NCBI GenBank assembly: GCA_019694795.1
Contig: JAIBBF010000016.1
Coordinates: 1 to 57,946, forward strand
Length of the DNA: 57,946 nucleotides
Direction of reading: 5' to 3'
From: Flavobacteriales bacterium
GTDB taxonomy: Bacteria; Bacteroidota; Bacteroidia; Flavobacteriales_D; UBA2798
Shown: positions 2,156 through 57,946 of the stretch, in pieces
Layout of the letters: the number at the start of each line of letters is the position of its first letter
How positions within the stretch are numbered: the stretch's first letter is position 1
The notes under the pieces: model-generated
The model's input: only the letters and a program-made list of their open reading frames with translations
Database searches by the model: none
Told to the model about the DNA's origin: nothing
Program-made: the position numbers and the translations under genes

Positions 2156-3279
2156 TCGGGGATATGAATTTCTACCAGGGTTCCATTGCTGGTGTCAAAG
2201 GCAATTTGTCCTTCTAATTGTTCCACCAAATCTTCTACCAAGCCAAGTCCGATCGAATTTCGTTTTTCATTTTTTGAATCGAAACCGGGACCATTGTCTT
2301 TGAATGCCAAATGAAATCCGGTGTTGTTTTTTTCGAATCGTACATTCAATATCCCGGGTTTTCCTGGTTTAAAGGCATACTTAAATGCATTGGTCACCAC
2401 TTCGTTGGTGATGAGTCCAAAAGGAATGGCTTTTTTAATAGCAATAGGCACATGCTGAATATTCTTATCGATATTCACATGCATACCTACACCCATGGAT
2501 CCGTTGAGGTGACTGAGTAAGTTCTCGAGGTAAACTCCAAAATCAATCTGTGCGTAATTTTTGGAAGTGTATAGTTGCTCATGGATATAGGCCATGGATA
2601 AAATTTTACTTCTTACTTCATCCAATAAGCCTTCATGAAATTCATCTTTCGCTTTGTATTTCTGAAGATTGATCAGGCTGCAAATAATCATCATATTATT
2701 TTTCACCCGGTGATTGATTTCATTGAGCAGGACTTCCTTCTCATGCAAGGCAATCTCCAATTGATGATGCAATTCATTTCTACGATGTGTCTCCATACAG
2801 AGTGAAAGCATTTGCGCAATACTAATGGCAAAACTTTGTTCTGAAATGGTCCATAACCGTTTTTCTCCCACATGCTCGAAACAAACCAGTCCTACCATTT
2901 CTCCTTCGATGCGGACAGGAATATCCATCATAGACTGGATACCCAGTGGCAAAATATAACTGTCTAATAATTCCTTGTTGAATGATGCAGAAACGGCATC
3001 GTCGCTCACAATTTTTTCTGCACCCGAAATATGTTTGAAATAATTGGGATATAATTCTACCGGCAACAATTGTCCTTTGCTAAAACCTTCAAGTCCTTTT
3101 TCAATGGAACCGATACAGGTAAGTGCTGTAAACTTCGGATCTATGGTCCACACATTCACGCGCGCCACTTGTAATCCCTCTGCCGCTTTTACCAGAATTT
3201 CATGAATGGCCACATCCAAATCGCCATGCCGGATAGCAGAACTTTTTGTTAATGATTCTATGATTCCGATATAATTCAC
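2137..3279 (-). CDS. GAF-domain sensor histidine kinase (HisKA_2 type)
   Basis: This is a 380-residue cytoplasmic sensor kinase with no membrane segments. Residues about 20-165 form a GAF-like sensor domain (VNVWTID and GEMVGLVCFEHVG strands). The phosphoacceptor region EVLLNEINHRVKNNMMII holds the probable His190 in the HisKA_2 context typical of HWE-like kinases. The ATPase domain follows with N box TNEVVTNAFKYAF, G1 box DNGPGFD and G2 box GLGLVEDLV. The end is at residue 380 with no receiver domain. No response regulator lies beside it, so its partner is elsewhere. The family often acts in stress or light signalling, but nothing here identifies the signal. Confidence 0.85.
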   Translation of the reverse strand: MNYIGIIESLTKSSAIRHGDLDVAIHEILVKAAEGLQVARVNVWTIDPKFTALTCIGSIEKGLEGFSKGQLLPVELYPNYFKHISGAEKIVSDDAVSASFNKELLDSYILPLGIQSMMDIPVRIEGEMVGLVCFEHVGEKRLWTISEQSFAISIAQMLSLCMETHRRNELHHQLEIALHEKEVLLNEINHRVKNNMMIICSLINLQKYKAKDEFHEGLLDEVRSKILSMAYIHEQLYTSKNYAQIDFGVYLENLLSHLNGSMGVGMHVNIDKNIQHVPIAIKKAIPFGLITNEVVTNAFKYAFKPGKPGILNVRFEKNNTGFHLAFKDNGPGFDSKNEKRNSIGLGLVEDLVEQLEGQIAFDTSNGTLVEIHIPDQSSLA

Positions 3280-4698: not shown

Positions 4699-5252
4699 GG
4701 ATTGGTGATTTTGCTGTTTTTTGGTCACTATAATCGCCTAAAAATAATAAAAGAAGACATCAAAAAGCGGAAAGGAGAAAAAAAATATTGAACGGTAAAA
4801 AGGAAGGGATGGGCAAAAAAAAATGCCGCTGGTTGAACAATCAAAATCAGAGAGGTCATGTTCAATTTGCCATCGGCATTTTTCGCAAGCAGGGTCGCAG
4901 TGCGACTCAAAACTTGTTGACCGGTTAAGGTCTCGTATGTTTTATCCGGTGGGAAATATGCGCCACCTGGAACTTGAGTTTTTGTCCGGGCGGCTTCGAA
5001 GCAGAATGCTTCTCAAGGGTGTTCGCTTTTCCAAATCTAAACAGATTTTGCTAAATAAAAAAAGGGTAGCGGGGAATTTGGTTGATAAACCCTAAAAGGA
5101 GAATCTAAGGGCTTGAAACTTAGAAATTAAAATGTTGAAATTATTTTTTATATACATCTGTATCAATCTGGCAGATAATCAACAGATAAGGACAGATATT
5201 CATTGTTAACAATTTGAAAGGTGCATCATTCTTCTGCTGGCCTTCCGAATGT
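4699..5252 (-). other. long intergenic region with a structured segment, possible gltA leader
   Basis: No credible gene lies in these 554 bases between the divergent gltA and guaA genes. The part from about 4880 to 5050 is more GC-rich than the rest and contains several short hairpins (GTCGC/GCGAC near 4890, GACC/GGTC near 4920, GGTGG/CCACC near 4970, GAAGCA/TGCTTC near 5000). On the minus strand a TAGATTTG box at 5039-5032 could start a transcript that runs through the whole segment into gltA. A small RNA or a long regulatory leader is possible; so is decayed sequence. Confidence 0.3.
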
Positions 5253-5260
5253 TATCTTTG
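5253..5260 (+). promoter_or_regulatory. -7 element of guaA promoter
   Basis: TATCTTTG matches TAnnTTTG exactly and ends five bases before the ATG at 5266, implying a leaderless mRNA or initiation at the ATG at 5275. No clear TTTG lies at the expected distance upstream. Confidence 0.5.
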
Positions 5261-5265
5261 CGCCC

Positions 5266-6795
5266 ATGCATGAAATGATCCTCATCCTCGACTTTGGGTC
5301 GCAATACACCCAGCTGATTGCCCGCCGTCTCCGCGAAATGAATGTTTACTGCGAGATCCACCCCTTTAATAAAATTCCCGCTATCGATCATCACCTGAAA
5401 GGTGTTGTATTATCGGGAAGTCCTTTTTCAGTTCACGATCCCAATCACCCGGTGCCTGAATTGAGCGATTTTATTGGTAAGGTGCCTGTGTTAGGTGTAT
5501 GCTACGGAGCTCAGTTTCTGGCGCAGACCAATGGCGGTTTAGTAGAGCGTTCGCAGATTCGCGAATATGGAAGAGCAACTTTGAAATATGTGGATGAAAA
5601 TTCGGCATTGACCAAGGGCATGAGCGAAAACTCGCAGGTGTGGATGTCGCACGGAGATACCATCACCAAAGTGCCGGAAGGATGTGAAATCATCGCTTCT
5701 ACTTCCGACGTGAATGTGGCAGGTTATCAGTTTAAGGATAAACAAGTGTGGGGAATTCAGTTCCATCCGGAAGTGTATCACTCCACCGAAGGAATGATTT
5801 TACTCGGAAATTTCGTTAAGGATATTTGTGCTTGTTCAGGAAGCTGGACACCCGGTTCCTTCATCGATTCTACCGTTGAGGAATTAAAAAATAAAATCGG
5901 AAACGATGTGGTGATAATGGGCCTATCCGGAGGAGTAGATTCATCAGTTGCCGCTGTTTTATTGCATAAAGCAATTGGGAAAAATCTCCATTGCATTTTT
6001 GTAGATAATGGATTGTTGCGTAAAAACGAATTCAATGAAGTTTTAGAAAGCTATAAGCACATGGGACTCAACGTTACCGGTGTGGATGCCAGAGATCGTT
6101 TTTATTCGGCGTTAAAAGGACAAACCGATCCGGAACAAAAAAGAAAAACCATCGGTCGCGTTTTCGTTGAGGTATTTGATGACGAATCCAAAAAACACAG
6201 CGCAGCGAAATGGTTGGGACAAGGAACGATTTATCCGGACGTTATTGAATCGGTTTCCGTAAAAGGTCCGAGCGCTACCATTAAATCGCATCACAACGTG
6301 GGAGGATTACCCGATTATATGAAACTTTCGGTGGTGGAGCCTTTGCGTGCTTTGTTTAAAGACGAAGTTCGTCGCGTTGGAAAAGCATTGGAAATTGATC
6401 AGGCGATTTTGGGTCGACACCCATTCCCCGGTCCGGGATTAGGTATTCGTATTCTTGGTGATATTACGCCGGAGAAAGTGGCCATTTTGCAAGAAGTGGA
6501 TCATATTTTTATTTCCGGTCTGAAAAAACATGGACTGTACGACCAGGTTTGGCAAGCAGGAGCAATTTTGTTGCCGGTTCAAAGTGTGGGTGTAATGGGG
6601 GATGAAAGAACCTATGAAAATGCAGTGGCTTTAAGGGCAGTAAGCAGTACAGATGGGATGACGGCCGACTGGGTTCATCTGCCTTATGAATTTTTGGCAC
6701 ACATTTCGAATGAGATCATCAACAAGGTAAAAGGTATTAACCGTGTAGTTTATGATATCAGTTCAAAACCACCTGCAACAATAGAATGGGAATAA
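5266..6795 (+). CDS. guaA: GMP synthase (glutamine-hydrolysing)
   Basis: This enzyme converts XMP to GMP using glutamine nitrogen and ATP. The N-terminal class I amidotransferase domain begins [17 protein letters not shown], has the nucleophile in GVCYGAQFL and the His-Glu pair in [11 protein letters not shown]. The ATP-pyrophosphatase domain carries the P-loop [12 protein letters not shown], and the C-terminal dimerisation domain includes [14 protein letters not shown] and ends in TIEWE. From 5266 the protein has 509 residues, normal for the family. I reject a start at 5221 because the promoter box lies at 5253-5260; the ATG at 5275 is also possible. The stop overlaps the next gene by 10 bases. 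Confidence 0.96.
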
Positions 6796-56638: not shown

Positions 56639-56718
56639 CCACTACCCCCTTCCCACTACCTTTTTCCCATGTGTCCTTCTTTCAAAAATCCTTAGTGCCC
56701 TTTAGTTTGTATCGTGTT

Positions 56719-56726
56719 TAAATTTG
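56719..56726 (+). promoter_or_regulatory. -7 box preceding the IS110 leader RNA
   Basis: TAAATTTG matches TAnnTTTG exactly and ends 11 bases before the first stem of the candidate RNA. No TTTG lies at 19-21 bases upstream in the inserted state. That fits a promoter completed only when the two ends join in the circular form. Confidence 0.5.
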
Positions 56727-56737
56727 AAGAATAATCA

Positions 56738-56889
56738 CTTCCACAAGAAACAAGGGGAATCAATTAGTGTTAAAGGTTTTTAGGCCTATACTAAGATTAT
56801 GACCCTTGTTTCTTTGAGTGACTGGACCAAATAGAAATTGAGGCTTACGACCTATTATCAAGGACTTAGTCAATGCACTCCTGTGGAAG
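56738..56889 (+). ncRNA. candidate bridge RNA (seekRNA) of the IS110 element
   Basis: The leader of the transposase folds by eye into a closed structure. CTTCCACA (56738-56745) pairs with TGTGGAAG (56882-56889). Inside, AGAAACAAGGG (56746-56756) pairs with CCCTTGTTTCT (56803-56813), then AATC/GATT and TTAGT/ACTAA continue the same arm to a loop. A second arm pairs GAGTG (56816-56820) with CACTC (56876-56880) and AATAG with CTATT. Two arms with internal loops on a closing helix is the layout of bridge RNAs, whose loops pair with target and donor DNA. The fold is mine and has not been computed. Confidence 0.6.
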
Positions 56890-56910
56890 CAAAACAAAAA
56901 TATTATAATT

Positions 56911-57915
56911 ATGAATCAAAAGTATTTTATTGGCATTGATGTTTCCAAAGGAAAGTTGGATTGTGCCGTAATTCTTTCAGACTACTCAATTGTTCTAGAG
57001 CGGGTGGTCAAAAACAATGATCAGAAGATTGCTGTTTTTTTGAAAGCTCTAATGAAAAAATTGAAGTTGGAGTCGACTTCTGTTCTTGTGTGCTGCGAGA
57101 CAACAGGCATTTACAACAAGCCATTGATTCGTGTCTGTCATGAAATGGGTATTCCTCTTTGGGTTGAACACGCACTTAAAATCAAGCGTGCAGCCACAGA
57201 TATGCGAGGTAAGTCAGACCGAAAGGATGCTTTGCGTATTGCAGAATATGCTATGCGGTATCAGGACAAAAAAGTGCTTCATGTGCTTTCCGATGAGAGC
57301 ATTGAAATTCTTGACACCAACTGCAAAGCACGTCAATCCATCTTGGAGCAAAAGGTTGCCTTGGAAAACCAGTTGCGTGAAGCCAAATCACATGACCCAC
57401 GCATGTACAAGCAACTCTCGGATTTATTCCGACCACTACTGAAAGCAATGAAAAAAAGCCTCAAGGATATTGATCAAAAAATTAACGACTGTATTGAACA
57501 GTGCCCTAGCATAGAGAAAAATGTTGAATTGATCCAAAGTGTTCCAGGTGTTGGCAAAGTAACCGCAATACAATTTGTAATCATTACCAATAACTTCAAT
57601 AACTTTGAAAACGCAAAGCACCTGGCTTGCTATGCAGGAGTAGTACCATTCGCCAATGAATCCGGAACTATCATCAAACGACCCAGAATATCGAAAATGG
57701 CAAATCTCAAACTGAAAACACTACTCCACCTGGCAGCGATGGCGGCAATAAGAACAAAAACTGAACTCAAACATTATTACATCAGAAAAGTCAAAGAAGG
57801 AAAAAACAAAATGGCAGTAATCAACGCCGTAAGAAACAAGCTCGTACACCGTATCTGGGCCGTAATCGAAAGACAAGCACCCTATATGTACAAAGAAGAA
57901 TTTTTATCAATGTGA
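56911..57915 (+). CDS. IS110-family transposase (DEDD recombinase)
   Basis: The 334-residue protein begins KYFIGIDVSKGKLDCAVI with the first catalytic Asp10, followed by CCETTGIYN (Glu63) and GKSDRKDALRIAEYA (Asp103, Asp106), giving the RuvC-like DEDD set. A coiled-coil segment (about 135-195) leads to the Transposase_20 domain VPGVGKVTAIQFV and CYAGVVPFANESGT, where Ser251 is the expected nucleophile. All catalytic residues are intact, so the enzyme is probably active. IS110 recombinases are guided by the RNA encoded in their own leader; such a leader is present just upstream. Confidence 0.95.
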   Translation: MNQKYFIGIDVSKGKLDCAVILSDYSIVLERVVKNNDQKIAVFLKALMKKLKLESTSVLVCCETTGIYNKPLIRVCHEMGIPLWVEHALKIKRAATDMRGKSDRKDALRIAEYAMRYQDKKVLHVLSDESIEILDTNCKARQSILEQKVALENQLREAKSHDPRMYKQLSDLFRPLLKAMKKSLKDIDQKINDCIEQCPSIEKNVELIQSVPGVGKVTAIQFVIITNNFNNFENAKHLACYAGVVPFANESGTIIKRPRISKMANLKLKTLLHLAAMAAIRTKTELKHYYIRKVKEGKNKMAVINAVRNKLVHRIWAVIERQAPYMYKEEFLSM

Positions 57916-57946
57916 TAAAATCACTTGACTTTAAACATAGAAATCT

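Follow-up and report, generated by a model that had tools for sequence, protein, structure and literature searches.

A predicted bridge RNA in the leader of a Bacteroidota IS110 element and its natural guide variation

In this work, we analyzed the leader of an IS110 element that lies at the right end of a 57,946-nucleotide stretch of DNA (the window, contig C16 of a Bacteroidota genome of 3.45 Mb in 124 contigs). Positions 56738-56889 almost certainly encode the bridge RNA of this IS110-group insertion sequence, as had been proposed from the letters of the window alone (the sequence-only reading). Support comes from covariation of the guides with the target and with the donor, on both sides of each, from IS621-like catalytic residues in the encoded recombinase and from a predicted circle-junction promoter. 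The same reading had suggested that the RNA, lying beside a tRNA gene, could carry a new target specificity; the target specificity is carried by UUAGUGUUA and AUACUAAG, in the first arm only, and the tRNA gene is incidental, the target being an intergenic repeat.

The gene of the transposase/recombinase (56911-57915, 334 aa; this and the other parts of the element and its left flank are on the forward, +, strand) places the element in the IS110 group, with both PF01548 (DEDD RuvC-like) and PF02371 (Transposase_20, catalytic serine) scoring above the Pfam cut-off. Residues D10, E63, D103, D106 and S251 correspond to the DEDD and serine catalytic residues in an alignment with IS621 (PDB 8wt6, E = 2e-20), and the ISCro4 recombinase (PDB 9t56) is by sequence the next closest solved IS110-type transposase.

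Fold and covariation of the leader RNA

The architecture first described from the letters held up in each of its parts, by folding, by the covariance model and by covariation. The 8-bp outer helix joins 56738-56745 (CUUCCACA) to 56882-56889 (UGUGGAAG) and, stacked directly on it, a perfect 11-bp inner helix, the target-arm stem, joins 56746-56756 (AGAAACAAGGG) to 56803-56813 (CCCUUGUUUCU); the 7 and 12 pairs modelled for these two helices, respectively, all show compensatory changes. The first arm is capped by an apical AGG/CCU hairpin (56774-56787, helix 3 of the covariation model), and the second, donor-binding arm spans 56816-56880 (helices 4-6). Folding of 56733-56895 gave a minimum free energy of -46.7 kcal/mol (z = -3.73, with 1 of 200 shuffled sequences as good), and a tighter interval gave z = -3.96, with none of 200 as good.

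In an alignment of eight homologs with 48-100% transposase identity, made by sequence only and not fitted to the structure, compensatory changes were found in 17 of the 36 pairs, against 6.5 +/- 1.6 after shuffling. When 32 homologs were aligned with the model, which fits the alignment to the structure and biases it in the model's favour, all 36 pairs carried compensatory changes, 92.9% of the cells were paired and the covariation score reached 0.881, compared with 0.235 in shuffled and at most 0.193 in slid alignments. A lack of compensatory changes, named in the sequence-only reading as an outcome that would refute it, was thus not observed. The covariance model also located the same RNA immediately upstream of the transposases of relatives at more than 40 loci, including Flavobacterium-type, Spirosoma and Mesonia elements, with matches reaching relatives at roughly 31-35% protein identity. 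No Rfam family scored above threshold within the element, the best weak match being a snoRNA (E 0.65). The single-sequence fold contains an arm-1 hairpin, UUAGUGU with AUACUAA, that pairs both guide strands together; inside arm 1, the family covariation backs only the AGG/CCU apical stem and not this hairpin.

Element ends, target repeat and core base

The element occupies 56700-57944, starting with CTTTAGTTTG and finishing with ...AACATAGAAAT, and the core C is present once on each side, at 56699 and 57945. To set these boundaries, the window copy was compared with three copies from a Flavobacteriaceae MAG (56% identity), with other homologs and with two additional right ends of the own genome (contigs C97 and C100), in which the sequence common with the window copy stops at 57944. 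A left boundary at 56691 (CT-TAGTG) was ruled out by the copy comparison. The left target flank (56686-56699) has the shared core C as its last base, as read from the copies and homologs and from empty repeats, which end ...TTCGTGCAA/C (a slash marks the junction). Both termini are conserved in homologs: the left end CTTTAGTTTG (56700-56709) comprises the right-donor half-site and a -7-like promoter box (TAGTTTG), and the right end AACATAGAAAT (57934-57944) is the left-donor half-site. The non-coding ends measure 211 bp on the left (56700-56910) and about 29 bp on the right (57916-57944), the long-left and short-right arrangement of the IS110 group; with the RNA in the left end and a right end of this length, the element lacks the layout of the IS1111 group. 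The contig finishes two bases past the element, and the right target of the window copy was therefore read from the C97 and C100 copies. No relative of the element was found in viral contigs.

The element targets a family of intergenic repeats; the repeat beside the C100 copy has 35 matches in the own genome, and the targeting of one such family explains where the copies of this genome sit. Empty repeats read ...CTTCGTGCAA/CTTCGTGTAC... (e.g. ttcttcgtgcaa/CTTCGTG), and occupied ones ...CATAGAAAT/CTTAGTG... or /CTGAGTG... (e.g. catagaaat/CTTAGTG and catagaaat/CTGAGTG). The tRNA-Arg gene, about 190 bp from the element, was ruled out as the target, as the flanks match the intergenic repeat. Exact-pattern searches of the own genome found no unoccupied CTTAGTG-CTTAGTG site, the actual site being CTTCGTGCAA-CTTCGTG, and target-like motifs inside the window were no more frequent than by chance. 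On contig C74 of the own genome (about 5150-6091), part of this family is arranged in tandem, in units of about 70 bp.

The extent of the core could be read from a relative (G463) with five insertions and nine empty sites (TCGTTCCTCGAAATGACA), whose left (TCGTTCCTC/CTTTAG) and right (CATAGAAAT/CGAAATGACA) junctions have, according to these empty sites, exactly one base in common. G463 and the empty sites of the own genome thus show a short core common to both junctions, of one base, and no longer target duplication, as is usual in the IS110 group. A CT core as in IS621 was ruled out by the G463 empty sites: C is followed by T, G, C or A in the target and by C in the donor, and two relatives have A in place of C. 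A CT core characterizes IS621 and its close orthologues, not the family at large. As for the crossover chemistry, the sequence would be compatible with either a one-base overlap or a two-base overlap whose second base is resolved consistently.

Target and donor guides

Between the stem and the apical hairpin, arm 1 contains hypervariable segments. The 3' segment, which holds the right target guide AUACUAAG (56788-56795, complementary to CTTAGTGT), is in reverse complement equal to the right flank, in a fixed register (C-TTAGTGT for the window element); further guide and flank matches are CCCCTC (L004), CTCCGC (L040), CGGGAT (L110), AGGGAG (L106), CGAAAT (G463) and CGGCCC (L042, Fibrella). Across 19 distinct guides, 107 of 114 positions pair with the right flank, compared with 59.5 +/- 5.7 after permutation and a maximum of 88 in 200,000 permutations; without the core base, 88 of 95 pair, against 42.4 permuted. 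The 5' segment, with the left target guide UUAGUGUUA (56764-56772), matches each element's left flank, as in AGCTGCT (L004), GCGCTATCC (L082), TCGTTCCTC (G463), TTCCATTTC (L062) and AATGCAGC (L025). With shifts of up to 2 permitted, equally in the permutations, the summed run was 196 against 105.8 +/- 6.7 and was reached by 0 of 100,000 permutations, counts which, here and for the right guide, are not strict probabilities, the elements being akin to one another though their guides differ widely. The first loop is therefore complementary to the genomic target and covaries with it on both strands, as expected of a bridge RNA.

The empty repeats (CTTCGTGCAA-C) have two more bases between the matched block and the core than does the left flank of the window copy (CTTAGTGC-C), where the left-guide match is consequently out of perfect register. 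Within 56686-56699, one base separates the guide-matched block from the core, compared with three in the empty repeats and one to three in related elements; unlike this left-side spacing, the guide register on the right side is always fixed. Two adjacent elements at L109 (G774 C34) face opposite directions (2501-2656, minus strand, and 2921-3075, plus strand), with identical right target guides and different left target guides. At L082 the right terminus is followed by CCTTTAGTTGAG, which resembles a joined right-left end (a tandem dimer or its remnant) and not a target, and which the right guide of L082 mismatches.

The donor guides lie in the second arm. The left donor guide AUAGAAAU (56831-56838) is identical to the last eight bases of the element (57937-57944), and in relatives with variant guides (ATAGAATG, TTAGAATA, ATAGATAT, ATAGAAAG, ATGGAAAT) the right terminus changes alongside. 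The right donor guide AUUAUCAAGG (56854-56863) pairs, with a 2-nt bulge, with the core and left end CCTTTAGT; a left end with CCTTAG after the core (L110, L062, L081) is accompanied by the guide AGGG, and a core base A (L106, L051) by a right donor guide ending in U. In tables of 19 elements compiled by hand, with the bulge model picked after inspection, 133 of 136 left donor guide positions are identical to the left donor (permuted mean 108.8) and all 64 proximal pairs of the right donor guide with the right donor are kept, including the five elements with a changed right donor or core base; the second loop is thus complementary to the joined ends and covaries with them. The right donor guide also comes in another length, without the two bulged nucleotides, in L025, L065, L088, L090, L094 and L106 (e.g. 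AUUAAAGG, compared with AUUAUCAAGG). By analogy to IS621 (PMC11208158), the AUU at 56796-56798 resembles a handshake guide: it is complementary to the terminal AAT of the left donor, and in divergent relatives the two vary together.

A strongly folded leader directly upstream of the start codon, with about 20 nt separating the outer helix from the ATG, might also be a cis-acting regulator of the transposase mRNA (an attenuator or a translational regulator) and not a guide. This is highly improbable: the variable segments track the insertion-site flanks, which is unexpected of a cis regulator, and the constant segments match the element's own termini. A regulatory side effect alongside guiding is possible.

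A truncated left-end fragment in the own genome (L033, C85, about 1501-1598) is cut exactly after the DNA encoding the left target guide (GAATCAATTAGTGTT) and is joined to the right half of the target repeat (CTTTTGTCTAAATGG). The guide-coding DNA resembles the left target, and this single case may represent a self-directed deletion. The presence of such a fragment in the host, together with the two-base offset at the left junction of the window copy, could be taken to mean that the element is itself a degraded copy whose bridge RNA is no longer functional. We consider this improbable, as the 334-aa frame is open, the catalytic residues, both termini and the four guides are all intact, and the three right ends in the own genome are identical, which suggests a recent movement of the element.

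Circle junction and relation to known systems

Joining the ends brings together the right-end TTG, a -33-like box (57925-57927), and the left-end TAnnTTTG-like box, with identical spacing in 27 of 27 elements. Compared with other elements, those in the clade of the window element have one base more in the right-end part and one fewer in the left-end part, a single compensating event between the two clades; that the spacing is kept despite these opposite length changes indicates that the joined circle matters. TAnnTTTG is the -7 consensus of the flavobacterial primary sigma factor, with a TAnnTTGY variant in Flavobacterium psychrophilum (PMC9723704), and TAGTTTGT of the window element fits this variant. 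The excised circle would rebuild a Bacteroidota-type promoter at a fixed spacing.

This geometry also bears on the explanation that there is no functional RNA and that the transposase binds the helices as DNA structures or subterminal inverted repeats. DNA-level inverted repeats exist here by construction and the termini are conserved, but the nested, multi-branched structure with compensatory changes in all helices, the placement of the guides in unpaired loops, following the same strand logic as in IS621 (PMC11208158), and the geometry of the predicted promoter, which would imply transcription, make this explanation extremely improbable.

The sequence itself gave the structure, the covariation of the guides with target and donor, the element ends, the target repeat and the promoter geometry; for transcription, protein binding and recombination chemistry, the following model of the bridge RNA draws on IS621. 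The RNA would be transcribed from the excised circle, in which the split promoter is joined (TTG of the right end, TAGTTTG of the left end). Arm 1 would act as the target-binding loop, its guides matching the insertion flanks, and arm 2 as the donor-binding loop, using AUAGAAAU with the right terminus and AUUA(UC)AAGG with the core and left terminus CCTTTAGT. Loaded with this RNA, the DEDD/serine recombinase would insert the circle into the intergenic repeat, between CTTNGTGCAA and (C)TTNGTG, around the single shared C, with CATAGAAATCCTTTAGTTTG as the proposed donor and CTTCGTGCAACTTCGTGTAC as the proposed target.

A bridge RNA was to be expected in this element, as Durrant et al. 2024 (PMC11208160) predict such RNAs, for the most part within the left end, for 85.7% of the catalogued IS110-group elements. 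As in IS621 of E. coli (Durrant et al. 2024, PMC11208160; Hiraizumi et al. 2024, PMC11208158), the RNA lies in the left non-coding end and has a target-binding loop followed by a donor-binding loop, each with a left guide for the bottom strand and a right guide for the top strand. Further likenesses are a right donor guide with flipped-out nucleotides (residues 157-165 of IS621 pair discontiguously, PMC11208158, and AUUAUCAAGG has its 2-nt bulge), handshake-like nucleotides that follow the right target guide (PMC11208158), a circle-junction promoter, here predicted from sequence, insertion into a repeated extragenic sequence and a homologous recombinase. In contrast, the junctions share CT in IS621 and one base here (C, or A in two relatives), and in most elements target and donor do not have the same base after the core. 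The promoter is of sigma-70 type in IS621 and the predicted one is of Bacteroidota type here and, in the published description of IS621, a 5' stem-loop precedes the two arms, whereas here the outer helix closes both. The seekRNAs of IS1111/IS110 elements (Siddiquee et al. 2024, PMC11187229) are similar in that an RNA from a non-coding region guides a DEDD transposase, in the upstream location for the IS110 type and in the circle-junction promoter, predicted in the present element; they differ in that IS1111 members have a downstream RNA and long subterminal inverted repeats, neither of which is seen here.

The guide-RNA mechanism is already known, and the present case is ordinary in kind with some variant features. 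No earlier description of a bridge RNA in this Bacteroidota lineage was found in the literature, and the text of Siddiquee et al. 2024 (PMC11187229) mentions no Bacteroidota element (0 matches for 'bacteroid'). To the literature consulted, the present case apparently adds a description of a whole clade in which natural variation reveals all the guides, the one-base shared core and the closed three-way-junction layout. We regard as evenly balanced the proposition that this Bacteroidota IS110 clade uses a single-base core, naturally reprogrammed from C to A by matched changes of the two right guides, for target and donor, and of both DNA sites, and a closed three-way-junction bridge RNA; if true, the 'fixed CT core' constraint of IS621 would not be general. 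The natural target diversity of the clade suffices to read all four guides straight from sequence and provides a set of guides and targets already reprogrammed in nature, and a shorter, variable core could, if borne out experimentally, widen the usable target space.
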